Assembly (NCBI RefSeq): GCF_003947415.1
Contig: NZ_QHKL01000006.1
Location: 62,001-126,000 of the forward strand
Direction: 5' to 3'
Length of the DNA stretch: 64,000 nt
Source of the DNA: Amycolatopsis sp. WAC 01376
Lineage (GTDB): Bacteria > Actinomycetota > Actinomycetes > Mycobacteriales > Pseudonocardiaceae
Below the pieces are notes generated by a model. That model had not been told where the DNA came from, made no database searches, and saw nothing but the letters and a program-made list of their open reading frames with translations. The position numbers and the translations under genes are program-made. Positions within the stretch are counted from its first letter, which is position 1. Each line of letters begins with the position of its first letter. Below, one piece after another: positions 24,134-49,979 of this stretch.

Positions 24134-25785
24134 CCGACCCGGTTACCGCCCTTCAGGCGAAAACCCATCCGGTGTGGGAGGCCGCCGCCGATCTCGTGGT
24201 GATCGGCAGCGGGGTCGCCGGGCTCACCGCCGCGCTGCGCGCGCGGGAGCTCGGACTGCACGTCCTGGTGGTCACCAAGGCGGCGGTCTCCGACGGGAAC
24301 ACCCGCTGGGCGCAGGGCGAGGTCGCGGTCGTGCTGGAGGGTGAGCACGAGCGAGGCGACTCGGTCGGCAAGCACGCGGCCGACACGCTCACCGCGGGCG
24401 CCGGCCTCTGCGACGAGGACGCGGTCCGATCGATCATCGCCGGTGGCCCGGCCGCGGTGGCCAGGTTGCGGGCGGAGGGCGCCCGCTTCGACCCGGCCGT
24501 CGAAGGCCGCGACGAACTGGCGCGCACTCGCGAAGGTGGCCACAGCGCTTTCCGTGTCATCCACGCCGGTGGCGACGCAACCGGCGCGGAGGTCGAGCGG
24601 ACGCTGGTCGCGAAGGCCGGTGACCGGCGGATCCCGGTGCTGGAGCACCACATCGCCGTCGACGCGATCCGCACGCCCGCGGGCGAGGTCGTCGGCGTGA
24701 CCGTCCTGGACCACAACGGTGTGCCCGGTGCCGTCCGGGCGCAGGCGGTGCTGCTGGCCAGCGGCGGGCTGGGGCAGCTCTATCAGGCGACGTCGAATCC
24801 GGAGATCGCCACGGGGGACGGGCTCGCGCTCGCGTTGCGCGCGGGGGCGCAGGTCGCGGACGTCGAGTTCGTCCAGTTCCACCCGACGGTCCTGTTCACG
24901 CCCGGCGCGCGCGGCCGCCTCCCGCTGGTCACCGAGGCGGTGCGCGGCGAGGGCGCGACCCTGCACGACGCGACGGGCGCCTCGGTCATGCGCGGGGTGC
25001 ATCCGCTCGGTGATCTCGCGCCCCGCGACGTCGTGTCGGCGGCGATCACGCGCCGGATGGTGCGGGCGCCCGGCGGTATCGACGACCACGTTTTCCTCGA
25101 TGCGACAGGGATCTCCGGGTTCGCCAAGCGATTCCCGACCGTGCACGCGGCGTGCTCGGCGATCGGGCTGGATCCGGCGAAGGACCCGATCCCGGTCACA
25201 CCGGCGGCGCATTTCGCCTGCGGCGGTGTGGTGACCACTGTGGACGGACGCTCCGGCGTTCGCGGTCTCTACGCGGCGGGCGAGGTCGCGAGGACCGGCC
25301 TGCACGGCGCGAATCGCCTGGCCTCCAACAGTTTGCTCGAAGGACTCGTCGTCGGGCAGCGGGTGGCGGAGGCGGTCGCCATCGATCTCGCCGCCGGTTT
25401 GCTGGCCGACCCGCGCCGCGGTGTGCTCTTGCCTCCGGCGAAAGTCGCGGTGGCCGACCGTGACGCGCTGCAGCGTGCGATGAGCCGCTACGCCGCGATC
25501 GGCCGGGACGCCGAAGGACTTTCGGTCGTCGGTTCGGTGCTGGATCTTTCGGTGATCGAGAGTCCTTTGTGGACGCCTCGGATCGTGGAGGACGCGGCGC
25601 TCACCTTGGTGGCGGAGGCCTTGGTCGCGGCGGCCGCACGCCGGACGGAATCCCGCGGCTGCCACGTGCGGACCGATTTCCCCGAACGTGACGACAACGT
25701 CTGGCAACGCGGCCAGCTCATCCGGCTCAGCCCGTCCGGGCAGCCGGTACTGGCCGATCCGATCGCTTTGGAGGGTGTGGCATGA
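24130..25785 (+). CDS. nadB: L-aspartate oxidase
   Basis: 551-residue FAD enzyme making iminoaspartate from aspartate, working with NadA. The FAD loop is [17 protein letters not shown], then [19 protein letters not shown], the active-site region [11 protein letters not shown] and [47 protein letters not shown]. The C-terminal helical domain is somewhat divergent but the length is normal. 4-base overlaps with nadA and nadC (both ATGA) indicate a tightly coupled operon. Confidence 0.97.
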
Positions 25786-26672
25786 GCGAATTCTCCCCGT
25801 GGGTCACCAAGGCGCTGGCCGATCACGGTCTCGACGTCCCCGATGTGCACCGTGTGGTCACCACGGCTTTGGCCGAGGATCTGCGGTACGGGCCCGACGC
25901 GACGACGAACGCCACCGTGCCCGAGTCCGCGACCGCGCTGGCCGAACTCACGCCGAGGACGGCCGGGGTGGTCGCCGGGATCCCGGTGGCGCTGGCGGTG
26001 TTCGACCTCGTGCTCGGTTCGGAGCTGGAGATCCTGGCCGCCCGCGCCGACGGCGACCGGCTGACCGCCGGCGAACCCGCGCTGGTGCTCCGCGGTCCGG
26101 TGCGTGGCCTGCTCACCGCCGAACGCACCGCGCTGAACCTGCTGTGCCATCTGTCCGGCATCGCCTCCGCGACCGCCGCCTGGGTGAGCGCCCTGGAGGG
26201 GACCGGTTGCCGGGTCAGGGATTCGCGCAAGACCCTGCCCGGACTGCGGTTGCTGGAGAAGTACGCGGTCCGCGCGGGCGGCGGGGTGAACCACCGGCTC
26301 GGCCTCGGTGACGCCGTGCTGATCAAGGACAACCACGTGGTCGCGGCCGGTTCGGTGACCGCGGCGCTCGCCGCCGCCCGCGAGCACGCGCCCGAACTGC
26401 ACTGCGAGGTCGAGGTCGACGACCTCGACCAGTTGGAGGAGGCGCTCGCCGCGGGAGCCGACGAGGTGCTGCTGGACAACTTCACGCCCGACGAATGCGC
26501 AAAGGCCGTCGACAGGCGTGACGAGGTCTCGCCGAAGACCCGGCTGGAATCCTCGGGCGGCCTGCGGCTGGACGTGGCGCGGGCGTACGCGGAGTCCGGT
26601 GTGGATTTCCTCGCCGTCGGAGCACTCACGCATTCCTCACCCGCGCTCGACCTCGGGATGGACCTCCGCTGA
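25782..26672 (+). CDS. nadC: Nicotinate-nucleotide pyrophosphorylase (quinolinate phosphoribosyltransferase)
   Basis: 296-residue type II phosphoribosyltransferase converting quinolinate and PRPP to nicotinate mononucleotide. Family pieces: AERTALNLLCHLSGIAS, RDSRKTLPGLRLLEKYAV, GGGVNHRLGLGDAVLIKDNHV, VEVDDLDQLEEAL and LLDNF, with ESSGGLRLDVARAYAESGVDFLAVGALTHS near the C-terminus. Last gene of the nad operon; the pseudo-mycosin gene follows 46 bases later on the same strand. Confidence 0.97.
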   Translation: MSEFSPWVTKALADHGLDVPDVHRVVTTALAEDLRYGPDATTNATVPESATALAELTPRTAGVVAGIPVALAVFDLVLGSELEILAARADGDRLTAGEPALVLRGPVRGLLTAERTALNLLCHLSGIASATAAWVSALEGTGCRVRDSRKTLPGLRLLEKYAVRAGGGVNHRLGLGDAVLIKDNHVVAAGSVTAALAAAREHAPELHCEVEVDDLDQLEEALAAGADEVLLDNFTPDECAKAVDRRDEVSPKTRLESSGGLRLDVARAYAESGVDFLAVGALTHSSPALDLGMDLR

Positions 26673-26718
26673 CCTCCGACAGTAGGATTCCCTTGTGTGA
26701 CAAGGGGATTCTGGAGGA

Positions 26719-27888
26719 ATGGTGGGCTTTGCCGGTAAAACTGCCGTCGCGGGATGCGTCGCTTTCATGGCATCGCTCGGCATCGGAGTCCCGGCGACGG
26801 CGGTCGCCGAGCAGTGCGCGAATCCGACGGGTACCTACACCGCCGCCGTTCCGTGGGGACAGCGGCTGATCGACCCCGTGCGGATCTGGCCGCTGTCGCG
26901 CGGCACCGGCCAGCTGGTCGCGGTGATCGGCACCGGGGTCGACGGCGGCAACGGCCAGTTCGCGGCCGGTCAGCTCGTCGGCGGCCAGGGCACCACGGCC
27001 GACGACTGCGACGGCCGGGGCACGATCGCCGCCGGGATCGTCGGCGCGCAACCGGATCCGTCCACGACGTTCACCGGGATCGCGCCCGGTGCCAAGATCC
27101 TGCCGATCCGGTACACGCAGGTGAACGGCGGCGGCGATCCCGGGCAGCTCGCGTCCGCCATCGAAACCGCGCTGAGCCGCGGCGCCGGGATCATCCTGAT
27201 CGCCGTCCCCGCGGCCGCCGACAGTCCCGCGCTGACCGGCGCCGTCTCGCGTGCGAGGGAGAAGGGCGCGCTGATCGTCTCTCCCGCCGCGGGGACGCAG
27301 CAGGGCCAGACGTCCTACCCGACCGCGACGCCAGGGGTGCTCGCCGTGGGGTCGACGAACCAGACCGGTGCGGCGGTGCAGACGGAATCCGGTTCGTACG
27401 TGGGGATTTCCGCGCCCGGCGCCGAACTGGTCAGCACCTCCGCCGGCGCGGGCGGGACGGTGGCGCATCGGTGGCCGGTGAGCGACCCGAGCCTGGCCGC
27501 CGCGCATGTCGCCGGTGTCGCCGCGCTCGTGCGCGCGTATCACCCGGAGCTGTCGCCGGAGCAGGTCGTCGCCCGGCTGACGCTGACCGCGCACCGTGGT
27601 CCGGGCGGCGGTCACGATCCCCGGCGGGGCTGGGGCGCGATCGACGCCTACGCCGCCGTTTCCGCCTCGATCCCGGCCGGTACACCCGGCCCGGGAGGAC
27701 CGCCGAGCGTCGCTCCGGACACCTTCGTCGTCCCCGCCGCCGCGCCCGCCCGAGCCAACGCGGACAAGGTTTCCGGCGTACTCGCCATCGCCGGGGTGGC
27801 CGCCGCCATCGCGGCGGGCGTGGTGGTGGCCGCGGTCCGGCGAGGCAAACGCCGGGGCTGGAAGCCGTCACGGTTCCGCGCCTCGTGA
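26719..27888 (+). CDS. Mycosin-like S8 protein with broken catalytic triad (pseudo-mycosin)
   Basis: 389-residue membrane-anchored subtilisin-fold protein of the type VII secretion mycosin (MycP) type: signal peptide (ending around ATAVAEQ), S8 domain, proline-rich linker and a C-terminal membrane helix (VLAIAGVAAAIAAGVVVAA) with a basic tail. The fold motifs are all present but two catalytic residues are replaced. The Asp motif DTGV reads GTGV (Gly71), the HGT motif reads RGT (Arg100), and only Ser258 in the GTS-equivalent DPSLAAAHVAG is retained. MycP proteins also stabilise the ESX membrane complex without proteolysis, which may be its role. GGAGGA directly abuts ATG 26719, an unusual spacing. 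Confidence 0.88.
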   Translation: MVGFAGKTAVAGCVAFMASLGIGVPATAVAEQCANPTGTYTAAVPWGQRLIDPVRIWPLSRGTGQLVAVIGTGVDGGNGQFAAGQLVGGQGTTADDCDGRGTIAAGIVGAQPDPSTTFTGIAPGAKILPIRYTQVNGGGDPGQLASAIETALSRGAGIILIAVPAAADSPALTGAVSRAREKGALIVSPAAGTQQGQTSYPTATPGVLAVGSTNQTGAAVQTESGSYVGISAPGAELVSTSAGAGGTVAHRWPVSDPSLAAAHVAGVAALVRAYHPELSPEQVVARLTLTAHRGPGGGHDPRRGWGAIDAYAAVSASIPAGTPGPGGPPSVAPDTFVVPAAAPARANADKVSGVLAIAGVAAAIAAGVVVAAVRRGKRRGWKPSRFRAS

Positions 27889-29811: not shown

Positions 29812-31113
29812 TCAGTACTGTTCGGGCTCTTCGCCGAGCACGGCGGGAGCGACCGGGGACGACTGACCCCAGACGTTCTCGGTCTCCACGAGCCACGGCG
29901 GGATGCGCCGTCCGGAACCCATGTCGCCGCCCGCGCCCATGCCCATCGGCATCATGGGCATCATCGGCATCGCGCCCTTGGCCGCCGCCGCGCCCGCCGC
30001 ACCGGCGGCCCCGCCCGCGAGCCCGCTCATCGCGCTGCCCGAGCCGCCGTCGCCCGCCAGACCGGAGAACGCGGCAGGCACCTCGCCGGGACCGGAGACC
30101 CCGCCGCCACCGATCGCGCCGCCGTCCAGCGAAGGCGCGCCACCACCGCCGATCGGGATACCGCCACCGGCCCCGCCCGCGGTCGCGCCCGCCCCACCGG
30201 CGCCGCCACCGCCGATCTCGCCGTCCTTCTTCTCGTCCTTGGGGTTCTTGCCGTTGGCCCAGCCCGGCACCCGCGGCATGATCGAGCCGAACCGGCCGAA
30301 CGCGGCGGCCGAGGCCGCGGCGAGACCGGCGGTGAACATGTCGCCGAACAACGGGTTCGACTTGGGGACCTGGCCCGGCTGCCCGGTGGTGGGCGGCGTG
30401 GAGCCGTCCGAAGGCAGCGGATGCGTGTTGTCACCCGGCACCACACCCACACCGGGTGTTCCGCCGATGTTGTTGCCGACCGAGCCACCCGGGGCGGTGC
30501 CGCCACCGGTGACCGGCGGCGGGGTGACGGCGTTCGGCGAGGCCGGAATGGACTCTTCCGCCGTCGAGTACTCGCCCGCGAGCTGGGTCATCACCACGAT
30601 CGCCTTGCTGTGCGCCGCGCTGGCCGCGCCCGCGGCCTGTTGCTGCGCTTCGACGTTCGCGATGGCCTGCTGCCGTTGCTGCGCGGCGTTGATGATCGTC
30701 GCCTGCGACGAATCCGGCGGCAGCAGCGGCGGATTGACGGCCAGCGCGAGGTCGGCGGGGGCGACGTCGGGCACCGCGACCGGCGGGGGCATCTCCTTCT
30801 TGGCCTTCACCAGCGCGTCCGCCGCGTCCTCGAGGAGGTTGTTCATCGCGTGCGCGGTCTGGGCGACCTTGCGGATGCCACCGACCAGGTCGGTGATCAT
30901 CGTGTGGTACTTGTCGGCGGCGCCGCCGGTCCAGCTGCCGGAGAAGTCCTTCAGCTCACCGGTCAGGTTCTCGGCCTGTTCGAACAGGCCGGAGCCGGTG
31001 GACTGCCATTTGTGGGCCGCGTGACGCGCCGTGTTCGGGTCGCCCGACTGCAGCATCGCGTAGAGCTGCTGGTGCGAGTACGCGGCGAAGTTCGTGTGCG
31101 CGGTCTCGGTCAT
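29812..31113 (-). CDS. PPE-like ESX secreted protein with Gly/Pro-rich tail
   Basis: 433 residues. The N-terminal ~170 residues are helical with a WTGG turn (FSGSWTGGAADKYH) as in WXG/PPE folds; the middle is glutamine and alanine rich helix (AAQQRQQAIANVEAQQQAAG); the long C-terminal region is glycine/proline rich, contains the run MPMMPMMPMGMG, and ends in the motif PPWLVETENVWG found at the end of many PPE-like proteins of Pseudonocardiaceae. Probably exported with the partner protein encoded just upstream, whose stop overlaps its start by 4 bases. Function outside the cell unknown. Confidence 0.82.
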   Translation of the reverse strand: MTETAHTNFAAYSHQQLYAMLQSGDPNTARHAAHKWQSTGSGLFEQAENLTGELKDFSGSWTGGAADKYHTMITDLVGGIRKVAQTAHAMNNLLEDAADALVKAKKEMPPPVAVPDVAPADLALAVNPPLLPPDSSQATIINAAQQRQQAIANVEAQQQAAGAASAAHSKAIVVMTQLAGEYSTAEESIPASPNAVTPPPVTGGGTAPGGSVGNNIGGTPGVGVVPGDNTHPLPSDGSTPPTTGQPGQVPKSNPLFGDMFTAGLAAASAAAFGRFGSIMPRVPGWANGKNPKDEKKDGEIGGGGAGGAGATAGGAGGGIPIGGGGAPSLDGGAIGGGGVSGPGEVPAAFSGLAGDGGSGSAMSGLAGGAAGAAGAAAAKGAMPMMPMMPMGMGAGGDMGSGRRIPPWLVETENVWGQSSPVAPAVLGEEPEQY

Positions 31114-31624: not shown

Positions 31625-31927
31625 TCAGCCGGCGAACAGGCCCTGGTTACGATTCTCCAGGCTGTGCTGGAGATCGTGGGCGTCGCCGACCTTGCCACCG
31701 AACTGCGCGATGATCGCCACGATGTCCGCGGTGGCCTGGCGCAGGCGGGTTTCAGACGCACGGGCCGCTTCACCGGCGGAGCTGCCGGAGGCGTACCAGG
31801 TCTGGGTGATCGGCTGCAGGTTCGTGTGCAGCTGTTCGAGCTGGGACGTGAGCGCCTTGGCCTTGGCGGCCAGCGAGGCCGAGCTGTGCTGCAGCGCGGC
31901 GAAGTTGATTTCGACGACGTCAGCCAT
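31625..31927 (-). CDS. WXG100 family protein (EsxB-like)
   Basis: 100-residue helix-turn-helix WXG100 protein; the turn motif appears as TWYASGSSAGE, that is W-x-x-x-G instead of strict WXG. No YxxxD signal is seen in its C-terminus, whereas its partner has one, so it may be the non-signalling member of the heterodimer. ATG 31927 (MADVVEINFAALQ) with an AGAGGACC site. It is 21 bases downstream of the other small esx gene on the same strand. Confidence 0.9.
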   Translation of the reverse strand: MADVVEINFAALQHSSASLAAKAKALTSQLEQLHTNLQPITQTWYASGSSAGEAARASETRLRQATADIVAIIAQFGGKVGDAHDLQHSLENRNQGLFAG

Positions 31928-31948: not shown

Positions 31949-32290
31949 TCAAGGGTTGAGCCGGTGGAACACGGTCTGGTCGACGGTTCCGCTGACCCCG
32001 GTCAGGCTTTCCCGGACCTGCTCGTCACCCGAGTTGTAGTTCCGGTTGCTCTCGTGCACGAGGCGCGACATCGTGTTGAGCTCGTTCACGGCGATGGTCA
32101 TCTTCTCCTGCAGACGGCGCTGCAGATCCCAGAACGCGACCGCCTGGTCACCCTTGTAGTTGTGCAGGGTCTGGGTCAGCTCGCTCTCCAAGCTGGCCAT
32201 CGTGGTCTTGGCGTTCGACGCGGTTTCCTCGAACCCCTGGACGGCGCGCGCCATCGCAGCTGCGTCTGCCTGATATCCCGTACCGGTCAT
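31949..32290 (-). CDS. WXG100 family protein (EsxA-like) with YxxxD signal
   Basis: 113-residue helical hairpin protein. The turn region reads YKGDQAVAFWD, where the WXG tryptophan is replaced by YKG. After helix 2 comes YNSGD (in NRNYNSGDEQVR), a match to the YxxxD type VII export signal. ATG 32290 has a GAGGAGGT ribosome site 8 bases upstream. First gene of the minus-strand ESX substrate operon; expected to pair with the 100-residue product downstream and leave through EccC recognition. The longer open frame upstream to 32674 is antisense to the membrane protein and is rejected. Confidence 0.9.
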   Translation of the reverse strand: MTGTGYQADAAAMARAVQGFEETASNAKTTMASLESELTQTLHNYKGDQAVAFWDLQRRLQEKMTIAVNELNTMSRLVHESNRNYNSGDEQVRESLTGVSGTVDQTVFHRLNP

Positions 32291-32483
32291 TGATGGCCAC
32301 CTCCTCTCATCTCGCTGGAAATCCCGGTGAGCACCAGGGGACGCCCTGTCTGCTCTTGTGAAGGACACGCTAGAAAACAGGGGAGTCCGGTCAAACGGCA
32401 CAACTGCCGGTCGCAGTGACGGCACTATTACCCACAGGTCGTCGGTAGGGCCTTCCCCACCATCGATCAGGGGGAGTACTCCA

Positions 32484-34354: not shown

Positions 34355-35059
34355 TCAGACTCCCGCGGTGGTGCGGATCCAGTCGCGGCTCGCCGCGACG
34401 CTGGCGTAGTTCTGGGTGCCCTGCGGGTTCGTGCCGGAGTTGCTGCCGGTCGAGCAGACGCCGACCTGGACGCCGTTCGAAAGCTGCGGGCCGCCCGAGT
34501 CGCCGTGCCAAGCCGAACCGTTGACGCCGACGCTGGCGATGGCCTGGCCGCCGTACGCGTCGCTGCTGGTTCCGGTGATGCGGACGTTGGCCGTCTTCAG
34601 GACGCTCGACGGCGGGTTGTTGCCCTGCGTGCGGCCCCAGCCGTAGATCTGGTTCGTGGTGCCGTTGGCCGGGTTCGCGGTGCCGAGCTTCATGTACGTC
34701 GTGCTGACCGCGGTCGTGAGATGCAGCAGGGCGATGTCGCCGCTCGGGGCCGCTTTCTGCTGGTCGACGTCGGCCTCGGTGCCCTGGTTCAGGTTGACGT
34801 TACCGACCTTGACGTGCATGCCGGGCTTGTTGAGGCAGTGCTTCGCGGTGAGGACCCACTGCGGGGCGATGATCGTGCCGGAGCAGTTGAAGCCGCCGAA
34901 CGCGGTGGCGTCGTCCCAGTAGATCTGGGCGCCCCACGGCGCGGAACTCACGGTGCCGCCGCCGATGATGTCCTGGCCCGCGTTCGCGGCGGGGGTGGCG
35001 GCGAGGGTCAGCGCAGCGGCGGCGCTCGCCACCGTTGCGACGATTTTGGACATACGCAT
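34355..35059 (-). CDS. Secreted trypsin-like serine protease (S1)
   Basis: 234-residue exported protease. Signal peptide VATVASAAAALTLAATPAANA, then the mature-type start IIGGGTVSSAPW. The triad is intact: His in LTAKHC, Asp in GDIALLHL and Ser in GDSGGP. Cysteine pairs NCSG/KHC fit the usual disulfide. The S1-pocket region reads NGSAWHGDSGGPQLSNGVQVGVCS, with no acidic residue clearly visible at the specificity position, so trypsin-like cleavage after Arg/Lys is unsure. ATG 35059 or 35053 could both serve. A LacI-type palindrome lies 42 bases upstream of the start. Confidence 0.92.
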   Translation of the reverse strand: MRMSKIVATVASAAAALTLAATPAANAGQDIIGGGTVSSAPWGAQIYWDDATAFGGFNCSGTIIAPQWVLTAKHCLNKPGMHVKVGNVNLNQGTEADVDQQKAAPSGDIALLHLTTAVSTTYMKLGTANPANGTTNQIYGWGRTQGNNPPSSVLKTANVRITGTSSDAYGGQAIASVGVNGSAWHGDSGGPQLSNGVQVGVCSTGSNSGTNPQGTQNYASVAASRDWIRTTAGV

Positions 35060-37732: not shown

Positions 37733-40700
37733 TTAGTCCTCCACAGGCTTCGTCCAGGCCACCTGCACCAGCCCCGTCCCGTGCCGCCGCGAGACCAGCA
37801 CACCCCGCCCCGCAGGCTGCGGCCCCGGCTTGACCTCCCCGAGCAGCGCCCCTTCGTCGCGCGACCCGGACATCACCAAGCCCGGAGAACCCAGCTCGCG
37901 GATCCGTTGCAGCACAGGCTCGAACAGCGAGCGCCCGGCCCCGCCGCTCCCGCGCGCGATGACGAGGTGGAGCCCGATGTCCCTCGCCTGCGGCAGGAAT
38001 TCCAGCAGCGGCAGCAACGGGTTCCGGCCAACGGTCGCGACCATTTCGTAGTCGTCGACGAGCACGAACAGTTCCGGGCCCCGCCACCAAGACCGGTTCC
38101 GCAGCTGTTCCGGCTTGACGTCCGCGCCGGGGAGCCGGTTCCGCATGGCCTGCTGGCATTGGTCGATCAGCCCGGTCAGCACGGTTTCGGAACCCGCGTA
38201 ACCGAGCAGGTGCGAATCCGGCACCGCACCCAGCATCCCTCGCCGATAGTCGGCGACGACGATCGCGGCCTCTTCCGCCGAGTACTTCGACACGATGCCT
38301 TGCGCGATCGCGCGCAGGAGCGAGCTCTTGCCGGATTCCACGTCACCGAAGGCCAGGAAGTGCGGTTCGGTGGCGAAGTCGAGGTACACCGGCCGCAGGT
38401 TCGATTCCGCGATGCCGAGCGTGACCTGTTTGCGCGGCCCGGCTTCCAGCGAGTCCAGCGGGACCTCGGGAGGAAGCAGCCGAACCTGCGGAGCCGCCGC
38501 ACGATTCCAGGCCGCCGAAATCCGGCGGTTCAGATCCAGGCCACCGGCGCCGACGGTATCCGGCCGCTGATCCGAGTCGATCCGCGGCAGTGCCGCGAGG
38601 AAATGCAGTTTGTCCGCGGTCAGCCCGCGTCCCGGCCGGTCGGCGGGGACGTTCTGCGCGATCTTGCGGTCGATCAGCGAGTCCGCCGGTTCACCGAGCC
38701 GCAGTTCGAATTTGGTGCCGATCGCGTCGCGCAGCGGCGCCCGCATGCCCATCCACTGGTTGATCGAGACGACGACGTGGATGCCGAAACCGAGCCCGCG
38801 CGACGCCAGACTGGTGATCTGTTCCTCCAGCTGTTCGTATTCCTGGCGGATCGTGGTCCAGTTGTCCACGAACAGGAAGACGTCGCCGAATTCGCGGCCC
38901 TCCGTGCTCTCCCGGAACTCCGAACGCCGCTGGCGGAACGTCGTGATCGACTCGATCCCGTTGGCGGAGAAGAATTCCTCACGCTGTTCGAGCAGGGTCG
39001 TCAGTTCCGCCACCACGCGGCGGCAGCGCTGGGCGTCGCGCCTGGTCGCGTAGCCGGACACGTGGGGCAGCCCGGCGATCGGCGCCAGCGCGCCACCGCC
39101 CATGTCCAGCACGAACAGCTGGACCTCTTCCGGAGTGTGGGTGAGCGCGAGCATCGCGGCGATGTCACGCATCAGTGTGCTCTTGCCGCTCTGCGGCGCC
39201 CCGACGATCAGCGCGTGCCCGGCGGCACCGGAGAAATCGGCCCACAGCATGTCGCGCCGCTGCTCGAAGGGCTTGTCCACCAAGGCGACGGGGATCATCA
39301 GCTTGCCGTTGCCGCCCCAGCCCAGCGGGCACAGACCGCGTTCGGGATCTTCGCCGAGCGGCGGCAGCAGCTGGTCAAGGGTCGGCGGTTCGGCCAGCGG
39401 CGGAAGCCAGATCTGGTGCGCCTCCGGGCCTTGGCCTTCGAGCCGCGAGATCATCGCGCCGATGATCGTCTCGCCGGTGCCCTTTTCGACCGGCTCTTCG
39501 GCCTCGACGGTCACCGGGATCTCCACCGGCGCCAGCGTGAACGGCATCAGGCCGAGGCTCTGGCCGTCCTTGCGCACGATCTTGCTGCGCGGCGGCAGTT
39601 CCCCCGAGACGTACGCGGCCTTGAGCCGGATGAGGGTGTCGTTGTCGGACTTCAGATACGCCGAACCCGGCACGGGCGGCAGCTGATAGGCGTCCGCGAC
39701 GCCCAGCACGGCGCGGCTTTCCGACGCGGAGAAGGTCCGCAGGCCGATCCGGTACGACAGATGCGAATCCAGCCCGCGCAGCCGTCCCTCCTCCAGCCGC
39801 TGCGAAGCCAGCAGAAGGTGGATCCCGAGACTCCGCCCCAGCCGCCCGATCGCGACGAACAGGTCGATGAACTCCGGCCGCGACGACAGCAGCTCGCTGA
39901 ATTCGTCGATGATCACCAGCAGCGACGGCAGCGGCCGCAGGTTGGCACCGGATTCCCTGGCCTTTTCGTAGTCCCGCACCGACGCGTAGTTCCCGGCGGC
40001 GTGCAGGAGTTCCTGACGCCGCAACAGTTCGCCGTTCAGCGCGTCCGCCATGCGGTCGACCAGCGCGAGATCGTCGGACAGGTTGGTGATGACGGCGCAG
40101 GTGTGCGGCAGCCCGGTCATCCCGGCGAAGGTCGCCCCACCCTTGAAGTCGATCAGCGCGAGGTTCAGCTTCTCCGACGAATGCGTGACGGCGAGCGCGG
40201 TGACCAGCGTCCGCAGCAGCTCGCTCTTGCCGGATCCGGTCGCGCCGATGACCAGCCCGTGCGGCCCCATCCCGCCTTCGGCCGATTCCTTCAGGTCGAG
40301 GTCGACCGGCCTGCCATCGGGGTTGACGCCCAGCGGGATCCGCAGCCGGTCGCGCGCGGACCGCGGCGCCCAGGTGACGGCCGTGTCGGTGTCGCGCGGG
40401 TCGCCGATGCCGAGCAGCCCGGCCAGCCCGAAGGTCGCCGACATCGGCGCCTCGCTGACCACCGCCGACCCTTGGAACAGGGGCGTCAGCATCCGCGAGA
40501 GCGCCTCGGCGGCCCCGCGGTCCAAGGTGTCCGGCATGCCGAGGAAACCGAGCCGCTGCTCCGTCGCGTCGCCGACGACCATCCCGAGCTGCTCCGGGCT
40601 CATGTGCAGGCTCAGCAGCCGTTCCGACGACACGGATCGCGGCTGCTCCGTGCCGATCTCCACCACGGTGACGCCGAGCCTGCCCTCTTCGGCGACGAGC

Positions 40701-41674
40701 CGCGAGTCGCCGAGGGTGTGCCCGCCGTCCACGATGACGACGATCTGGGGCAGGTCCAGCCGGGCATCCGGCCGCCGGGTGAACGCGGGCCGGTCGCCGA
40801 GGTCGGGGCCGAGGAGGTCGGCGAGTTTCCCGGAGTCGGCGTCGACGAGCCGTCGCGGACCGGCGGCGTCGGCGGCGGTGGAGGCCACATGCGGCAGCCA
40901 CTTCGCCCATTCCCAGTCGTGCAGCCGGTCGTCGTTGACGCAGAGCGCGATCCGCAGGTCGCCGGGTGAGTGGAAGGTCGCGAGCTGGGTCAGCAGCGCC
41001 CGCGCGGTCCCGAGCGTGTCCGGGCGGCGGCCGGACAGGCTGACCTGCGCGAACGACCGCAGCGAGACCGCGACCGGAAGTCCGTCGACCGTCGAATAGG
41101 TCCGGATGAAGTGCTTGAGGTTCGTCGAGCACACCGGGTCGAGGTCTTCCAGCGGCACGGTCTGCGGCGCCTTCAACGGCGTCGCGAGCCGCTGCGGGCC
41201 CGTCCCGACGCGCACCTGCCCGAACTGCGGGTCGGACCGGCGGCGATCCCACAGCTTCCCCGTCTCGATGTACGCCCACAGATCGGCGGGGTCGGGCTGC
41301 AACGCCGCCATCGCCGCGCGCTGGTTGTCCGCGATCTCCCGCACCTGGCCGCGAAGACCGGTCAGATACCGCTGGTAGTCCCGGCGTTCCTCGTTGATCT
41401 GCGCCTTCTTCGCCGCGCCACCGCGCCCGAGCGACATCACGACCATGCCCACCATCGCGGTGAGGAACAACGCGCCGAAGATGTAGGTCATCACCCCGCC
41501 GTCGCGTCCGATGTAGACGAACGACATGGCGCCCATGCCCAGCATCATCGGCATGAACATCAGCAGCTGCATGGCTCCGCCGGACGAGCCCTTCGGCAGC
41601 ATCGGCGGGGACTGCAGGACGATTTCACCGGGCTGCTCGCCCAGGGCCGGCAGGCGGTCGCGAGTGGCGCTCAT
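37733..41674 (-). CDS. eccC: Type VII secretion ATPase EccC (fused EccCa-EccCb)
   Basis: 1313-residue motor of the ESX membrane complex. Two N-terminal membrane helices (MLMFMPMMLGMGAMSFVYIG and IFGALFLTAMVGMVVM) precede three FtsK/SpoIIIE ATPase domains. Walker A loops: GATGSGKSEL near residue 475, GAPQSGKSTL near 822 and GDVESGKSSL near 1110. Walker B acidic pairs occur in LLVIIDEF, VFLFVDNW and LFVLVDDY. In domain 2 the Walker B reads VDNW, so its hydrolysis may be weak, as the second and third domains of EccC mostly bind substrate. One ORF holds all three, unlike split EccCa/EccCb. ATG 41674. It stands apart from eccB/D/E and faces away from them. Confidence 0.97.
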   Translation of the reverse strand: MSATRDRLPALGEQPGEIVLQSPPMLPKGSSGGAMQLLMFMPMMLGMGAMSFVYIGRDGGVMTYIFGALFLTAMVGMVVMSLGRGGAAKKAQINEERRDYQRYLTGLRGQVREIADNQRAAMAALQPDPADLWAYIETGKLWDRRRSDPQFGQVRVGTGPQRLATPLKAPQTVPLEDLDPVCSTNLKHFIRTYSTVDGLPVAVSLRSFAQVSLSGRRPDTLGTARALLTQLATFHSPGDLRIALCVNDDRLHDWEWAKWLPHVASTAADAAGPRRLVDADSGKLADLLGPDLGDRPAFTRRPDARLDLPQIVVIVDGGHTLGDSRLVAEEGRLGVTVVEIGTEQPRSVSSERLLSLHMSPEQLGMVVGDATEQRLGFLGMPDTLDRGAAEALSRMLTPLFQGSAVVSEAPMSATFGLAGLLGIGDPRDTDTAVTWAPRSARDRLRIPLGVNPDGRPVDLDLKESAEGGMGPHGLVIGATGSGKSELLRTLVTALAVTHSSEKLNLALIDFKGGATFAGMTGLPHTCAVITNLSDDLALVDRMADALNGELLRRQELLHAAGNYASVRDYEKARESGANLRPLPSLLVIIDEFSELLSSRPEFIDLFVAIGRLGRSLGIHLLLASQRLEEGRLRGLDSHLSYRIGLRTFSASESRAVLGVADAYQLPPVPGSAYLKSDNDTLIRLKAAYVSGELPPRSKIVRKDGQSLGLMPFTLAPVEIPVTVEAEEPVEKGTGETIIGAMISRLEGQGPEAHQIWLPPLAEPPTLDQLLPPLGEDPERGLCPLGWGGNGKLMIPVALVDKPFEQRRDMLWADFSGAAGHALIVGAPQSGKSTLMRDIAAMLALTHTPEEVQLFVLDMGGGALAPIAGLPHVSGYATRRDAQRCRRVVAELTTLLEQREEFFSANGIESITTFRQRRSEFRESTEGREFGDVFLFVDNWTTIRQEYEQLEEQITSLASRGLGFGIHVVVSINQWMGMRAPLRDAIGTKFELRLGEPADSLIDRKIAQNVPADRPGRGLTADKLHFLAALPRIDSDQRPDTVGAGGLDLNRRISAAWNRAAAPQVRLLPPEVPLDSLEAGPRKQVTLGIAESNLRPVYLDFATEPHFLAFGDVESGKSSLLRAIAQGIVSKYSAEEAAIVVADYRRGMLGAVPDSHLLGYAGSETVLTGLIDQCQQAMRNRLPGADVKPEQLRNRSWWRGPELFVLVDDYEMVATVGRNPLLPLLEFLPQARDIGLHLVIARGSGGAGRSLFEPVLQRIRELGSPGLVMSGSRDEGALLGEVKPGPQPAGRGVLVSRRHGTGLVQVAWTKPVED

Positions 41675-43680: not shown

Positions 43681-45045
43681 GTGTGGGGGAGCGGTGTGGT
43701 CGACGCGTCGGGCGTCGTCAGTTCGATTCTGTCGAATTACCGGCGGCTCGTGGTCGAGTACCAGCGGCGGGTCACCGGTGATCCCGCCGCGCTGAACGCG
43801 GCGAGCCAGCGGTGCGGCGAGCGGGCGTCGACGGTTTCAGGTCGCGCGGAGGAGATCGGCAAGGCGGCCAAGGCGCTCAACGCGTCCTGGGAAGGCGACG
43901 CGTACGTCGCATTCTCCACCTCCGCCGCGAAACTGAGCCAAGAACTCGGCGAGCTCGGCACGAAACTGGGCGACCAGTCGAACCGGCTACGGGGAGGCGC
44001 GCAGGCCCTGCAGGGCGCGAAGTCCTGTGTGGACTCGATCCTCGCCCAGTTCGACCAGTACGCCGCGCAGCTCACCAGTCAGGCGCGGACGGCGAACGCG
44101 AACGCGGTCAACGCTTTCATCTCCGCCGCCCGGCAGCTCGGCGAACGCGCCGCGCAGGCGGCACAGGAGATCGCGGACGAACTGAGCGAGGAACTCGCGC
44201 GGCTGTTCCCGCCGGAGGGCACCGGCCGGATCGAGCACGAACTGGGCAAATGGGGCCGCGGACCGTTGTACTGGCTCAACGGAGAAGCGCTCGACGGCCG
44301 CAGGCGGCCGCGCTCGCATCCGTCGTGGTTCGGCAATTCCGGCTGGAAGAAGCTCACCTGGGACGGTCTCGAAGGCACGCGCGCCCCGCGTGCGGGTGAC
44401 ACGCCGTTCGGCAGGCCGAAGCCGGAAGGCCTGCGTGACAAGGCCTGGAACAGCACCGAGATCACCTACGCGAAATGGAAGCAGGAACAAGACGGCTTCA
44501 CCCCGGGCTGGGACGCCAAGGTCTCCTCGCAGGGCTGGGACCTCAAGGCGTCCGGGCACGCCGAATTGGCCGCGTTCAAGGAAGAACTCGAACGCAAGGG
44601 CGAATGGGGCGTCGCTTCGGGCAGCGCCAAGGGGACCGCGTTCGTCGGCGGTGAGGTGAACGGCTCGCTCCAGGCGGGCGCGCACGGTGTCGGCGTGCAC
44701 GCCAACGCCTTCGTCGGCGGCAAGATCGAAGGCGAACTCGCGGCCGACGTGGCCGGGGTGGGCGTCGGCGCGAGCGGAACCCTCCAATATGGACTCGGCG
44801 CGCAGCTCGACGGCCAGGCCGTTTACGACGCGGGACACATCAAGGTCGACTTCAAGGCCGGTGTCGCGCTCGGCCTCGGCGCCGGGATCGGCGCGAAGAT
44901 CGACATCGACCTGCCGAAGATCGCGGACACCGTCGGCGAGTACGGCGGCGCGGCCGTCGACGCGGTGAGCGGCGCGGCGGGCGAGGCGGCGGACGCCGTC
45001 GGCGAGGCATGGGACGACGCGATCACCTACGTGGGCACGTGGTGA
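43681..45045 (+). CDS. ESX-type protein with WEG helical domain and repetitive beta-rich C-terminus
   Basis: 454 residues. The N-terminal ~180 residues are a helical hairpin with WEG (LNASWEGDAYVAFS), as in WXG100 proteins, then an amphipathic coiled coil. After a basic linker with several tryptophans, residues about 310-425 form a repeating Gly/Val/Ala pattern of alternating residues, such as HGVGVHANAFVGGKIEGEL and GVGVGASGTLQYGLGAQLDG, reminiscent of amphipathic beta-strands. It could be a toxin or pore-like effector; no known toxin domain was identified. GTG 43681. Its stop overlaps the next gene start (GTGA). Confidence 0.75.
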   Translation: MWGSGVVDASGVVSSILSNYRRLVVEYQRRVTGDPAALNAASQRCGERASTVSGRAEEIGKAAKALNASWEGDAYVAFSTSAAKLSQELGELGTKLGDQSNRLRGGAQALQGAKSCVDSILAQFDQYAAQLTSQARTANANAVNAFISAARQLGERAAQAAQEIADELSEELARLFPPEGTGRIEHELGKWGRGPLYWLNGEALDGRRRPRSHPSWFGNSGWKKLTWDGLEGTRAPRAGDTPFGRPKPEGLRDKAWNSTEITYAKWKQEQDGFTPGWDAKVSSQGWDLKASGHAELAAFKEELERKGEWGVASGSAKGTAFVGGEVNGSLQAGAHGVGVHANAFVGGKIEGELAADVAGVGVGASGTLQYGLGAQLDGQAVYDAGHIKVDFKAGVALGLGAGIGAKIDIDLPKIADTVGEYGGAAVDAVSGAAGEAADAVGEAWDDAITYVGTW

Positions 45046-45560
45046 GCGGGATGAGCACGGAGGACCGGGTCTCCCTCCCGCTGGGCTTCGACATCCCCGA
45101 GGGCTGGGTGCCCGTCGAGCCGTCGTCCGTCGGCGCCGACGGCGCGGTCTTCGTGGCGGTGCACTCCGCGCCGGACGGCGAGTTCACCCCCAACATCACC
45201 CTGAGCGTCGGGCAACGGCCGGACCGGGCGCGGATCACCGACATCGCCGACGAGGCCGTCGAACGCCTCGGCCGGTCGATGGCTGCCCTCGAACTGGTGC
45301 GGCGCAAGGAGATCGGCACTCCGGTCGCGCCGGGGGTGACGCAGGTGCTGCGCATCCGCACCGGCGAAGGACAGGATCTCGTACAGACGCAGGTGCAGCT
45401 GACCGTGCCGGGGGCGAGCCCGGCCGACCGGCTGATCCTCCAGATCGCCTGCACCGCGACACCCGAGGCGGCCCGTGGCCTCGGCGACGACTTCCGGCGG
45501 TTCGTGGGCAGCGTCCACGTCCGGCGGGATGCCACCGCAGATGAAGGAGAAGACTCGTGA
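45042..45560 (+). CDS. LpqN/PsbP-fold-like protein
   Basis: About 172 residues without a signal peptide. The pattern (LGFDIPEGWVPVEPSSVG...FVAVHSAPDGEFTPNITLSVGQRPD...DEAVERL, then LRIRTGEGQDLVQTQVQLTVPGASPADRLILQIACTATPEAARGLGDDFRRFVGSV) resembles the LpqN/PsbP/Mog1 beta-sandwich fold often encoded in ESX and envelope loci. A scaffold or chaperone for secretion is plausible. GTG 45042 overlaps the previous stop; ATG 45051 is an alternative start. Its own stop overlaps the YbaB-like gene. Confidence 0.7.
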   Translation: MSGMSTEDRVSLPLGFDIPEGWVPVEPSSVGADGAVFVAVHSAPDGEFTPNITLSVGQRPDRARITDIADEAVERLGRSMAALELVRRKEIGTPVAPGVTQVLRIRTGEGQDLVQTQVQLTVPGASPADRLILQIACTATPEAARGLGDDFRRFVGSVHVRRDATADEGEDS

Positions 45561-45886
45561 CCACCGACCCCTACGCCATGCCGGACATGGACGAGCTGCT
45601 GGACCAGGTCCGTAAGCAGACCGAAGAGGTGCAGCGCATCCAGCGTTCGGTCGAGGCGATGGAGGTCAAGGCGCACTCGCGGCAGAACGAAGTCACTGTC
45701 GTGCTGCGCGGAGACGGCCGCTTCACCTCGATCGACATCGACCCGCGCGCACTGCGTCAGTACGACGCGCGCAACATCTCGGAGATCGTGCTGGAGGCGG
45801 TCAACAACGGGCTCCAGAAGCTGGCCGAGGCCAGCAACGCCAAATTCGCGCCCGTCATCGAGTCCGCCAAGTCGATCGAAGCATGA
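45557..45886 (+). CDS. YbaB/EbfC-family-like small protein (EspL type)
   Basis: 109 residues with the YbaB layout: N-terminal helix (MDELLDQVRKQTEEVQRIQRSVEAMEVKAHS), strands (NEVTVVLRGDGRFTSIDIDPRALR) and a C-terminal helix (ISEIVLEAVNNGLQKLAEASNAKF). Inside ESX loci such proteins (EspL-like) are thought to act as dimeric chaperones for secretion substrates instead of as nucleoid proteins. GTG 45557 and the stop each overlap their neighbours by 4 bases, so this gene lies inside a translationally coupled chain with eccD. Confidence 0.83.
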   Translation: MTTDPYAMPDMDELLDQVRKQTEEVQRIQRSVEAMEVKAHSRQNEVTVVLRGDGRFTSIDIDPRALRQYDARNISEIVLEAVNNGLQKLAEASNAKFAPVIESAKSIEA

Positions 45887-47259
45887 CGGCCGCGATCGCG
45901 GGCTCCACCCGGCGCGTCACGGTGGTGACACCGCGGGCGCGTGTCGACGTGGCGCTGCCGCAGCAGAGCACGTTCGCCGAACTCGTCCCGCAGCTCGTGC
46001 GGCTCGCGGGTGCTTCGGGGCAGGCGTCGGCCGAGCATCCCGGCTGGGTGCTGTCCCGGCTCGGCGGCGCTCCGCTCGCGCTCGGGCTCACGGTCGCCGC
46101 GGCGCAGGTGCGCGACGGCGAAGTCCTCCATCTGACCCCGCGGGAACGCCCGCGGGGTCCGCTGCTGTTCGACGACGTCGTCGATTCGATCGCGAGCGTC
46201 GCCGAGTCGGGCACCGGGCGGTGGGGACCGTCGGTGGCGCGCAAGGCGGGCATCGTCGCGTCCGTGGTCCTGCTGCTCGCCGGTGGACTGCTGGTGCAGG
46301 CGGCGGCGTCCGGGAGTGTGCTGGCGCCGATCGGCACCGGACTTCTCGCGCTGGTACTGGTGCTGGGCGGCGGCGCGCTGAGCCGCGCGTACGGCGACGC
46401 GGAGGCAGGCGCGGCCGGCGCGCTCGCCGGGGTCGGCGCGGCACTGCTGGCCGGGATGTCGATCCTGCCGCCGCATCCGCTGTTCTCGCTGTCGGCAGGA
46501 CCGCTGGCCGCCGGGCTCGCGGTGGTGACCGTCTACGGCGTGATCGCGGCCGTTTCGGTGGCGGACCGGCTGCCGTGGTTCGTCGCGGTGACGGTGTCGG
46601 CCGGGCTCGGCGCGATCACCACCGCCATCGTCCTGCTGGCCGACGTCCGCCCGGTTTCGGCGGCCGCCGTGGTCGCCGTCGTGGCGACGGCGCTGGCCGC
46701 GGTCGCGCCGATGATGGCGCTGCGGCTCGGCAGGCTCCCGTTGCCCAGGGTGCCCGACGACATGGACGCGTTCCGTGCCGACGAGGACCCCTCGCTCGGC
46801 GAGGACATGGTCGGCGGGACGACTTACGCGCAGGCGTTGCTGACCGGGCTGCTCGTCGCGCTCGGACTCGTCGTGGTCTCGGCTTCGGTGGTCCTGTCGT
46901 CTTCCGGCGGGGCTTGGGAAGCGGGCTTGTGCGCGCTGCTGGGTCTGGCGCTGATGCTGCGCTCGCGCGCCTTCGCGGGCCGCTCGCAGCGGGTCGTGCT
47001 CATCGGTTTCGGCGCGGCGGCCTTGGCGGCGGCCGGTTTCTGGCTCGCCGCGAGCGGGCCGCGTTCGTTCGTCTTCGCCGCGGGCTGTGCCGTCGTCGTC
47101 GCGGCGGGCGTCTGTCTCACCTACGCGACGCGTGTCGCGAAGGGACGTCGTTCTCCGTACTGGGCAAGGACTCTCGACATCGTGGAGTTCCTGGTGCTGC
47201 TCTCGCTGATCCCGTTCGTCGGCATGATCGCGGGCGTCTACGAAGCCGTACGCGGCTGA
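45883..47259 (+). CDS. eccD: Type VII secretion membrane protein EccD
   Basis: 458 residues: a ubiquitin-like N-terminal domain of ~95 residues (RRVTVVTPRARVDVALPQQSTFAELVPQLV...EVLHLTP) followed by about eleven membrane helices. EccD forms the large dimeric membrane ring of each ESX protomer and contacts EccC through its ubiquitin-like domain. Size matches the family. The start overlaps the YbaB-like stop by 4 bases (ATGA). It converges with eccE across a hairpin at 47277. Confidence 0.93.
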   Translation: MTAAIAGSTRRVTVVTPRARVDVALPQQSTFAELVPQLVRLAGASGQASAEHPGWVLSRLGGAPLALGLTVAAAQVRDGEVLHLTPRERPRGPLLFDDVVDSIASVAESGTGRWGPSVARKAGIVASVVLLLAGGLLVQAAASGSVLAPIGTGLLALVLVLGGGALSRAYGDAEAGAAGALAGVGAALLAGMSILPPHPLFSLSAGPLAAGLAVVTVYGVIAAVSVADRLPWFVAVTVSAGLGAITTAIVLLADVRPVSAAAVVAVVATALAAVAPMMALRLGRLPLPRVPDDMDAFRADEDPSLGEDMVGGTTYAQALLTGLLVALGLVVVSASVVLSSSGGAWEAGLCALLGLALMLRSRAFAGRSQRVVLIGFGAAALAAAGFWLAASGPRSFVFAAGCAVVVAAGVCLTYATRVAKGRRSPYWARTLDIVEFLVLLSLIPFVGMIAGVYEAVRG

Positions 47260-47337: not shown

Positions 47338-48411
47338 TCAGTTCTCCAGCGCCAGCGGCAGGGTCCGCCGGACCGCCGCCGCGTGCCGTCCGTGCAGCGG
47401 GATCACCGCGACCCCGCTCGGCCGCACGGTCTCCGCCCCAGGCCGCCCGCCGACCCGGATGGTCACTTCGGACTTCTCCCGTCCGCCAGGCGTCCGGTGC
47501 AGCGTGTACGAAGTCGCGGTGAACGCAGATCCGGGGACGTGAAGATCCAGCGTCCGCGCGAGATCCCGTTCGGACCGTGGCCGGTAGCAGACCTGCGACG
47601 CGCCGCCCCAGTCCCAGGAGCGCCAGCCGTTCACCGGCGCGCCCTGGCCGTGCCCGAGCGCGACGCGCAGTTCTTCCGCCACTTCACCGGCTTCGAGCAC
47701 GGTGCTCTCGAATCCGGCCTCGGCCAGCGTGCCCATCAGTCTCAGCGCCGCGCAGGCGGTGCTCCGCAGTGCGCCGAGTTCCCCGCCGCCGCGGGCGAGC
47801 GCCGCGATCGGCGCGTTCTCGGGCCGGTACCGGACGGTGAGCCAGCGGACGCGGAGCACGGACTGTCCATTGGGGACGGTCCAGGTCAGCAGTTGCGCGC
47901 TGGACAAAGGGATCCCGGTGCCCGCGAAGGCCTCGCGCAGAATGGCGACGAGGGTGTCCGGCCCGGGTGCCATGGCGCCGGGGGTGAGCCGCACGATGGC
48001 GCTCCAGCCGTCGCTGACCTCGGCGACACCGAAGCGGTTGCCCGCGCGGTCGACGTGCTGGCGTACCCGGGCGGGACCGGCGAGCCGGTGCAGCGGATCG
48101 GGGACCTTGTTCTTGTCGCGGCGTTTCAGCCGGTAACCGGCCCAGGTGAGCAGCCAGCCCGCGAGGTGACGGCCGGCGAAGCGGACCGACGTCGTCAGCA
48201 CGAGGACGCCGGCGACGGCGGTGATGCTGATCTGCGCGGCGAGGGGGATCCCGTCCACGGTGAAGGCCAGGAGGATCGCGATCCCGGCGATCTCCCAGAG
48301 CGCCGCCTGCAGCGGGCGGATCGGCAGCAGCCAGGGCAGCGGCGCCGCGCCCGCGACACCGCGCGCTGGAGCCCGGTCCTGGACCGGGCGGGCCGGGGCT
48401 TCAACCGACAA
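47338..48411 (-). CDS. eccE: Type VII secretion protein EccE
   Basis: 357 residues: two N-terminal membrane helices (LWEIAGIAILLAFTVDG and ISITAVAGVLVLTTSVRF) and a soluble domain with WSAIVRLTPGAMAPG and the C-terminal repeats characteristic of EccE. EccE stabilises the periphery of the ESX complex. TTG 48411 has a strong GGAGGAGGGG site; the longer frame upstream crosses the divergent promoter. It is oriented opposite to eccD and divergent from eccB, with 146 bases between the starts. Confidence 0.85.
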   Translation of the reverse strand: MSVEAPARPVQDRAPARGVAGAAPLPWLLPIRPLQAALWEIAGIAILLAFTVDGIPLAAQISITAVAGVLVLTTSVRFAGRHLAGWLLTWAGYRLKRRDKNKVPDPLHRLAGPARVRQHVDRAGNRFGVAEVSDGWSAIVRLTPGAMAPGPDTLVAILREAFAGTGIPLSSAQLLTWTVPNGQSVLRVRWLTVRYRPENAPIAALARGGGELGALRSTACAALRLMGTLAEAGFESTVLEAGEVAEELRVALGHGQGAPVNGWRSWDWGGASQVCYRPRSERDLARTLDLHVPGSAFTATSYTLHRTPGGREKSEVTIRVGGRPGAETVRPSGVAVIPLHGRHAAAVRRTLPLALEN

Positions 48412-48557
48412 GGAATTCCCCTCCTCCGTGCACGCGCCCGACGGTAGCCGCGCCCCGCGCGGGGGAGGGGCGTAAAAAATACCCTCACCGCGAACCGGGC
48501 CCAGACCTAACGTGAGCACCCTCGAACGGGTGGGCACGAACGGCGGGGGACGGGAGC

Positions 48558-49979
48558 GTGTGGACGCAGCGGGACCAGATCCAGGCCTACCAATTCCTCC
48601 GCAGGAGACTGGTTTCGGCACTGGTCTCGGCTGACGCCAACCATCCGGTCGCCCCGAGCCGCAGGCTGGTCATCGGAACCTTGTGCGGCCTCGGCGTCGC
48701 ACTGCTGGTCACCGCGGTGTTCGGCGTGATCGGCCTGCTGAACCCTTCCGGCGGCAAGGATTGGCTGGCGGGCGGCAAGGTGATCGTCGAGGAGGGCACC
48801 GGCGCGCGCTACATCCTCGGCCAGGACGGCGCGCTGCACCCGGTGCTCAATTACGCCTCCGCGCGGTTGATGGCGGGCGGCAACGGCGAGGCCACCGTGA
48901 CCGTCCCTTCCGACAAGCTCGCGAAGGCGCCGCGCGGTTCGCAGATCGGCATTCCCGGCGCGCCCGATTCGCTGCCCGCGGCGGCCGCGCTGGTGAACAC
49001 CCCGTGGACGAGCTGCACGCGGACCACCCAGGACGCGCCCGCGTCGGCCGAACCGGAGACGACGGTGCTCCTCGGCGCACCCGCCGCCGGGGTCGACCTG
49101 CCGAGGGACCAGGCCGTCGTGGTCCGCGTCCCCGAGGGAGAGCGCTATCTCGTGACGGCGGGGCGCCGCTACAAGCTCACCCCGGAAGCCGCCACGGCGT
49201 TGCAGTTCGACACCTATCCGGCGATCGCGGTGTCGTCCCGGTGGATCGGCACCGTCGCCGCCGGACGCGATCTGGCCTACCGCGCGGTCGAAGACGCCGG
49301 ACGGCCCGGCCCGAAGGTCGGCGGCACCGCGACGAAGGTCGGTTCGGTGCTCGGCGTCGTCGACGCGATGGCGACACCGGGCAACGCGACGTCGTACTAC
49401 CTCGTCCACGCCGAAGGGCTCGAACCGATCGGCCAGACCGAGGCGAGCCTGCTGATCAACACGCCGCAGAACGCGGACGCCTACACCGGTGTCCCGGCGC
49501 CCGTCGCGGTGCGCGCGGCCGACGTCGCCGCGGTGCCGAAGGTCGGCACCGCGAGGGCGGGCGGGGCCGATCCCGCGGAGTATCCGGACCGGATCCCGCG
49601 AAAAGCACCCGTTACCGGACAGTCCGTGACGTTATGCGCGCAGGGTTCTCGAATCGTTATCTCCGCACAGGTCCCGTTGCCGCAAGGTGCGAAGGCGATC
49701 CCGGTGACGGCGCGGACGGACGCGTTGGTCGCCGACGCGGTTTTCGTGCCTCCGTCGGGAGGCGCGGTGGTGGCGGAATCCGGTTCCGGCACGGTTTACG
49801 TCGTGACCGACACGGGCTTGAAGTACCCGGTGGCGAGCAGTGAGGCACTCGCTTCCCTCGGATACGGCCAAGCCGAACGGCAACCGGTTCCGAATGGATT
49901 ACTGGCGCTGGTGCCACGCGGACCCGCGCTGGATCCGGCGCAGGCGGGCCGTGCGGTGTCCGCGGGTGGGACGGGGTGA
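48558..49979 (+). CDS. eccB: Type VII secretion protein EccB
   Basis: 473 residues with one N-terminal membrane helix (LVIGTLCGLGVALLVTAVFGVIGLL, about residues 35-59) and a large extracytoplasmic part containing the EccB repeat motifs (GARYILGQDGALHPVLNYASARL; GTVYVVTDTGLKYPVASSEAL). The N-terminus TQRDQIQAYQFLRRRLVSALV before the helix is typical. EccB forms the outer lumen of the ESX complex. GTG 48558 has a GGGGACGGGAG site. Its stop overlaps the first response regulator by 4 bases (GTGA). Confidence 0.94.
   Translation: MWTQRDQIQAYQFLRRRLVSALVSADANHPVAPSRRLVIGTLCGLGVALLVTAVFGVIGLLNPSGGKDWLAGGKVIVEEGTGARYILGQDGALHPVLNYASARLMAGGNGEATVTVPSDKLAKAPRGSQIGIPGAPDSLPAAAALVNTPWTSCTRTTQDAPASAEPETTVLLGAPAAGVDLPRDQAVVVRVPEGERYLVTAGRRYKLTPEAATALQFDTYPAIAVSSRWIGTVAAGRDLAYRAVEDAGRPGPKVGGTATKVGSVLGVVDAMATPGNATSYYLVHAEGLEPIGQTEASLLINTPQNADAYTGVPAPVAVRAADVAAVPKVGTARAGGADPAEYPDRIPRKAPVTGQSVTLCAQGSRIVISAQVPLPQGAKAIPVTARTDALVADAVFVPPSGGAVVAESGSGTVYVVTDTGLKYPVASSEALASLGYGQAERQPVPNGLLALVPRGPALDPAQAGRAVSAGGTG

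Follow-up and report, generated by a model that had tools for sequence, protein, structure and literature searches.

A mycosin relative lacking catalytic residues, conserved within an ESX locus of Amycolatopsis

The window analyzed here, a stretch of 64,000 nucleotides from Amycolatopsis sp. WAC 01376, carries a complete ESX (type VII) locus between nadABC and hisD, with eccC, eccD, eccB, eccE, several WXG100-type proteins, a trypsin-like protease, two response regulators, and a mycosin-like protein hereafter called the pseudo-mycosin. The features, in window positions, are the following.

25782..26672, + strand: nadC, the upstream neighbor (seen in all 20 Amycolatopsis stretches and in none of the 14 from other genera)
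26685..26712, + strand: imperfect inverted repeat just upstream of the pseudo-mycosin start, present with small changes in 16 close loci
26719..27888, + strand: pseudo-mycosin of 389 aa, comprising a signal-like N-terminus, an N-terminal extension, an S8 domain that lacks the catalytic Asp and His, and a C-terminal helix with a basic tail
26929..26931, + strand: codon 71, Gly, at the site of the catalytic Asp
27004..27024, + strand: codons 96 to 102, DCDGRGT, with Arg100 (27016-27018) at the site of the catalytic His
27292..27294, + strand: codon 192, Gly, at the site of the oxyanion-hole Asn
27490..27492, + strand: codon 258, Ser, at the nucleophile site
29812..31113, - strand: WXG100/PPE-like protein, a probable substrate
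31625..31927, - strand: small WXG100-like protein of 100 aa, scoring 25.1 bits against a Pfam cut-off of 27.3
31949..32296, - strand: WXG100 protein, its start placed from the extent of matches in relatives
34355..35059, - strand: trypsin-like (S1) protease; N-terminus signal-like, His, Asp, and Ser all present (motifs by eye)
37733..41674, - strand: eccC ATPase, three Walker A motifs
43681..45045, + strand: large WXG100-domain protein
45557..45886, + strand: YbaB-family protein
45883..47259, + strand: eccD
47338..48495, - strand: eccE, putative start
48558..49979, + strand: eccB
49976..51369, + strand: two LuxR-type response regulators, with a related pair close to the pseudo-mycosin in 11 of the 14 loci from other genera

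The N-terminus of the pseudo-mycosin is hydrophobic, as read from the sequence, and the predicted model contains a helix at residues 348 to 378; the protein is probably exported and anchored by this C-terminal helix. The initial annotation had reported GTGV in place of DTGV and RGT in place of HGT, and both replacements are indeed there (Gly71 and Arg100). The oxyanion Asn is lost too (Gly192), and three of the four catalytic-site residues are thus gone in the window protein, Ser258 being kept. The S8 fold, also described as preserved, is borne out by the predicted model, which agrees with a mycosin-type fold, although ordinary subtilisins score nearly equally. Compared with MycP1, MycP3, and MycP5 (TIGR03921, PF00082), the pseudo-mycosin lacks Asp, His, and the oxyanion Asn, and its TIGR03921 score of 234.7 bits is below the NCBIfam equivalog cut-off of 278.75 bits. 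By eye, this protein has only short counterparts of the long MycP1 and MycP3 loops, as does C21, an intact paralog from the same genome. The pseudo-mycosin is encoded together with eccB, eccC, and eccD, as is a MycP, but does not have the Asp-His-Ser triad expected of the family (G71, R100, S258). Given the outcome of these membership comparisons, classification as an active mycosin would be inappropriate; by descent the protein is a pseudoprotease branch of the mycosin family, and protease activity is presumably absent.

Homologs were aligned as a set of 121 sequences, namely the window protein together with the best 120 of 600 matches. DCDGRGT with Arg100 is found in all 121, whereas Asp71 is found in none (Gly in 116, Ala in 3, Ser in 2), nor is the oxyanion Asn; position 258 is Ser in 31 and Gly in 79. 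Intact triads in orthologs, which the initial annotation had named beforehand as the mark of a recent lesion, occur in 0 of the 121 and in 0 of 14 loci of other genera. These 14 loci, covering 14 of 20 non-Amycolatopsis genomes with a match, all encode DCDGRGT, with Gly (10) or Ala (4) at the Asp site and Ser258 in a single case. In contrast, the best 120 of 2049 homologs of the intact paralog C21 show D-H-N-S in 119, with a gap at Asp in 1. Since the three homolog lists (best 120 each of 600, 195, and 2049, close duplicates counted) were drawn with three different queries, the numbers of intact and damaged mycosins in them do not equal the natural proportion.

The loss of three of four catalytic-site residues and a match below the NCBIfam cut-off would be the marks of a recent lesion or a decaying pseudogene. 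We regard this explanation as extremely improbable and rejected it, because the same losses run throughout the homologs (0 of 121 intact) and the nonsynonymous-to-synonymous ratio omega is low (0.15); moreover, reading frames are without stops in 53 Amycolatopsis matches and in 36 of 38 places listed in the family search, one gene, that of genome G049, being frameshifted. Residual or nonstandard catalysis through Ser258 or another nucleophile is very improbable as well: Ser258 is present in the window protein, but Ser is absent from 90 of the 121 sequences, and all of them have other residues in place of His and the oxyanion Asn. Accordingly, the earlier statement that Ser is the sole survivor holds for the window protein, while the weight placed on this Ser does not find support among the homologs. 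There is good support for regarding the absence of the catalytic residues as fixed and selected.

A DNA pattern for DCDGRGT matched 8 of 394 genomes of the class, with a mycosin-length protein match only in the window and in genome G365. The latter, from the same order as the window genome, has a mycosin-like gene (L101) in which, by eye, Asp and Asn are kept, His is changed to Arg within DCDGRGT, and Gly occupies the Ser site.

The pseudo-mycosin is under purifying selection, with a median omega of 0.15 (120 pairs, 16 close loci) and of 0.107 for residues 31 to 316. Arg100 is encoded by CGC (15), CGG (13), or AGG (1) in 29 of 29 loci tried; these are 29 of 30 Amycolatopsis loci, L067 being left out as cut by a contig end, and the choice of strand required GRGT, which all 29 passed. 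Among 35 nonredundant rows, DCDGRGT, with an entropy of 0, leads the scored heptads, and variability at position 258 exceeds that of ~83% of core positions. The rows were picked by Arg at position 100, so its invariance within them follows from the choice; independent of this choice are the count of 121 of 121 (best 120 of 600 matches with the window protein) and the finding that the same 35 rows group together at 98% in a tree of 106 of 244 rows from which the active-site columns had been removed. Because DCDGRGT is the most conserved heptad and position 258 is among the more variable core sites, the nucleophile site is, to judge from the aligned homologs, drifting while the His-to-Arg change is held.

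The fixed Arg100 suggests that the old active site still matters, either structurally or for docking, and its invariance exceeds what a pure scaffold should require and could point to a specific role of the site. The dead groove might thus bind a substrate, partner, or ligand without cutting it (docking, gating, or sensing), with Arg100 at the center, an alternative that we consider unlikely but to be taken seriously. Apart from the conservation of DCDGRGT, this would fit six further positions, N78, D98, P141, P164, G196, and E223, each of which is invariant across the 35 clade rows and shared by no more than a quarter of 18 intact rows, as well as the inward orientation of the MycP5 active sites toward the secretion chamber (PMC8131196). 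A precedent would be CspC of Clostridioides difficile, described as a subtilisin-like pseudoprotease with a signaling role in spore germination (PMC6636752), which likewise retains a function, although CspC is a soluble spore protein outside any secretion system. On the other hand, a bulky residue in the substrate groove of MycP1 or MycP5 is reported to leave secretion working (PMC5082899), the conserved block also includes residues common to intact mycosins, and no ligand is known.

The gene is closely tied to its ESX machine. Relatives at 90 to 95% identity come from ten genome records, all of them Amycolatopsis. Among 60 Amycolatopsis genomes, 53 have an orthologue of the pseudo-mycosin (at least 60% identity) and 52 have the cognate eccB (at least 62% identity); the same 7 genomes lack both, and one assembly of 190 contigs (G045) has the pseudo-mycosin gene without a detected cognate eccB. 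All 52 genomes with the cognate eccB also match the pseudo-mycosin, the match being frameshifted in G049 and shortened in G002 and G050. In these 60 genomes, the pseudo-mycosin is retained wherever the cognate machine is retained. The interruption in G049 lies near the N-terminus, and this single case, which goes in the expected direction, could be a sequencing error. G049 is also the one genome seen in which no eccC or eccD match lies between nadA and hisD, its ESX locus (L112) consisting of eccB and regulators.

Family-wide, 37 of 249 genomes, in 9 of 46 genera, match the pseudo-mycosin at E values up to 1e-60. In Amycolatopsis, nadC lies upstream of the gene, up to ~1.5 kb away, in all 10 close and all 10 distant stretches. 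The other genera have nadC in 0 of 14 stretches, while eccB and response regulators are near the gene in 11 of 14 and eccC in 13 of 14. As these genera keep ESX genes nearby but no nadC, the pseudo-mycosin is tied to the ESX locus and not to nad.

Alternatively, cutting could have passed to the trypsin-like protein at 34355-35059, whose catalytic residues are in place behind a signal-like N-terminus. Nine of the 10 close stretches carry its gene (the remaining one stops short of the site), as do 8 of 10 distant Amycolatopsis stretches, which made a general stand-in protease look strong within the genus. Nevertheless, none of the 14 stretches from other genera gave a match, and neither did L110 or L112, and the general form of this idea was rejected on the count of 0 of 14; the search in other genera covered 20-kb stretches with the window trypsin as the query at E 1e-6, so that a distant or far-off protease would be missed. 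Since genera without a match have equally dead mycosins, the trypsin is at best an Amycolatopsis addition, and we hold such a handover to be improbable.

One mycosin is encoded in the ESX locus of the window, and tblastn searches with four mycosin queries (1e-6) gave one mycosin place in each of 34 gene-bearing stretches (24 of 20,000 bases and 10 of 11 to 21 kb). Genome-wide, EccB, EccC (over the cut-off), and EccD are each encoded at four places, with one mycosin per ESX locus. The search for an active paralog that the initial annotation had proposed yielded two mycosins, C11 and C21, that keep D, H, N, and S, which the window mycosin does not, lacking Asp, His, and Asn. The fourth mycosin, C23 (L097:11689-12825, - strand), keeps Asp and His and has lost the oxyanion Asn and Ser, a state complementary to that of the window protein. 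Similar states occur among its listed homologs (best 120 of 195) in Amycolatopsis, Lentzea, Crossiella, Actinosynnema, Streptomyces, and Kitasatospora.

The C23 clade, with homologs from Streptomyces, Kitasatospora, and Lentzea, thus also consists of mycosins that have lost catalytic-site residues, but differs from the window clade in that Asp is kept in 42 and His in 48 of 52 nonredundant rows, while Asn is gone and Ser is gone in many rows. Two rows of the C23 type, P0195 and P0213, have Arg at the His site as well. Trees were built on thinned sets of 106 of 244 rows, 103 rows, and 56 rows; the 56-row tree omits the outgroup row out_L007, whose branch of 6.28 in the 103-row tree reflects a wrong reading frame, and the outgroup L015, for which no usable frame was obtained, is absent from the 103-row tree. 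In the 56-row tree, 50 mycosin rows and 6 outgroup rows are split at 99/97, and the pseudo-mycosin groups with the mycosins. The window clade (9 rows, named Amycolatopsis, Kutzneria, and Micromonospora) is monophyletic at 100/100 inside the mycosins, and the C23 clade (21 rows) is separate at 100/97. Parsimony requires at least three changes between intact and damaged states, with row P0222 included, although such counts do not tell gain from loss. A single joint clade of both damaged groups is allowed (AU p 0.376), and on these sequences catalysis was likely lost independently in the two.

The five Mycobacterium tuberculosis mycosins are described in a commentary as having an Asp-His-Ser triad (PMC5156307). 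Mycosins are needed for the stability of the ESX complex, yet protease-dead MycP1 and MycP5 still support secretion, and ESX-1 even oversecretes; MycP5 itself, according to the same authors, is possibly inactive despite having all features for activity (PMC5082899). In the ESX-5 structure, MycP5 trimers cap the EccB5 chamber with their active sites facing inward and stabilize the complex, and without MycP5 the periplasmic assembly of EccB5 is disrupted (PMC8131196). The passages on mycP in an Amycolatopsis genome paper present it as an S8 peptidase, with no remark on its residues (PMC11004387). The open-license literature searched yielded no description of a mycosin that is inactive in nature, although one may be in print elsewhere.

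Taken with these reports, the pseudo-mycosin is probably a catalytically dead mycosin of one ESX lineage, fixed long ago, that serves as the periplasmic clamp of its own EccB/C/D/E complex. Because the catalytic loss is kept in every close relative examined, it probably holds the export machine together without cutting. Like MycP5 in ESX-5, it would join EccB dimers into a cap over the secretion chamber, with no cleavage of substrates, and Arg100 may be a structural replacement within the former active site. EccB binding and the clamp role are assigned here by analogy with MycP5, and the simplest reading would be that this lineage retains the clamp function alone. The purely structural mycosin proposed in the initial annotation is supported in part: it agrees with the published MycP data, and a docking or gating role may exist as well. 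The closest laboratory counterparts are the protease-dead mutants MycP1 S354A and MycP5 S461A (van Winden 2016, PMC5082899), in which the machine still secretes, as is only expected here; those are single engineered changes, whereas the pseudo-mycosin represents a natural fixed state in which other residues have been lost.

ESX secretion requires MycP, while in laboratory mutants it proceeds without the protease activity (PMC5082899), which leaves the purpose of mycosin proteolysis open. A lineage in which the protein persists after loss of its catalytic residues offers a natural test of structural versus proteolytic function without engineering, here in soil actinomycetes and within a cell that contains both intact and damaged mycosins. 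It is tempting to go further and to propose, tentatively, that obligately protease-free ESX machines exist in actinobacteria; that the invariant-Arg clade has acquired a new, selected role for the former active site as an Arg-centered structural or docking site facing the chamber; that catalysis was lost in at least two lineages; and that two damaged mycosins are present beside two intact ones in a single cell. We consider this combined view possible, with the balance against it.

A difference in the third EccC Walker A motif between damaged and intact systems was considered and rejected, the aligned site being GK[ST] in all four EccC proteins of the genome. The WXG100/PPE-like protein at 29812-31113 shows weak similarity to EspB_PPE, below the cut-off; EspB is a known substrate of MycP1 (PMC5082899). 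The inverted repeat at 26685-26712, a candidate operator, leader hairpin, or nadC terminator, is of the type GAATTCCCTTGT-GTG-ACAAGGGAATTC, imperfect in the window, and lies directly 5' of the start in 16 close loci, while a different inverted repeat occupies the same spot in many of 13 more distant Amycolatopsis loci.
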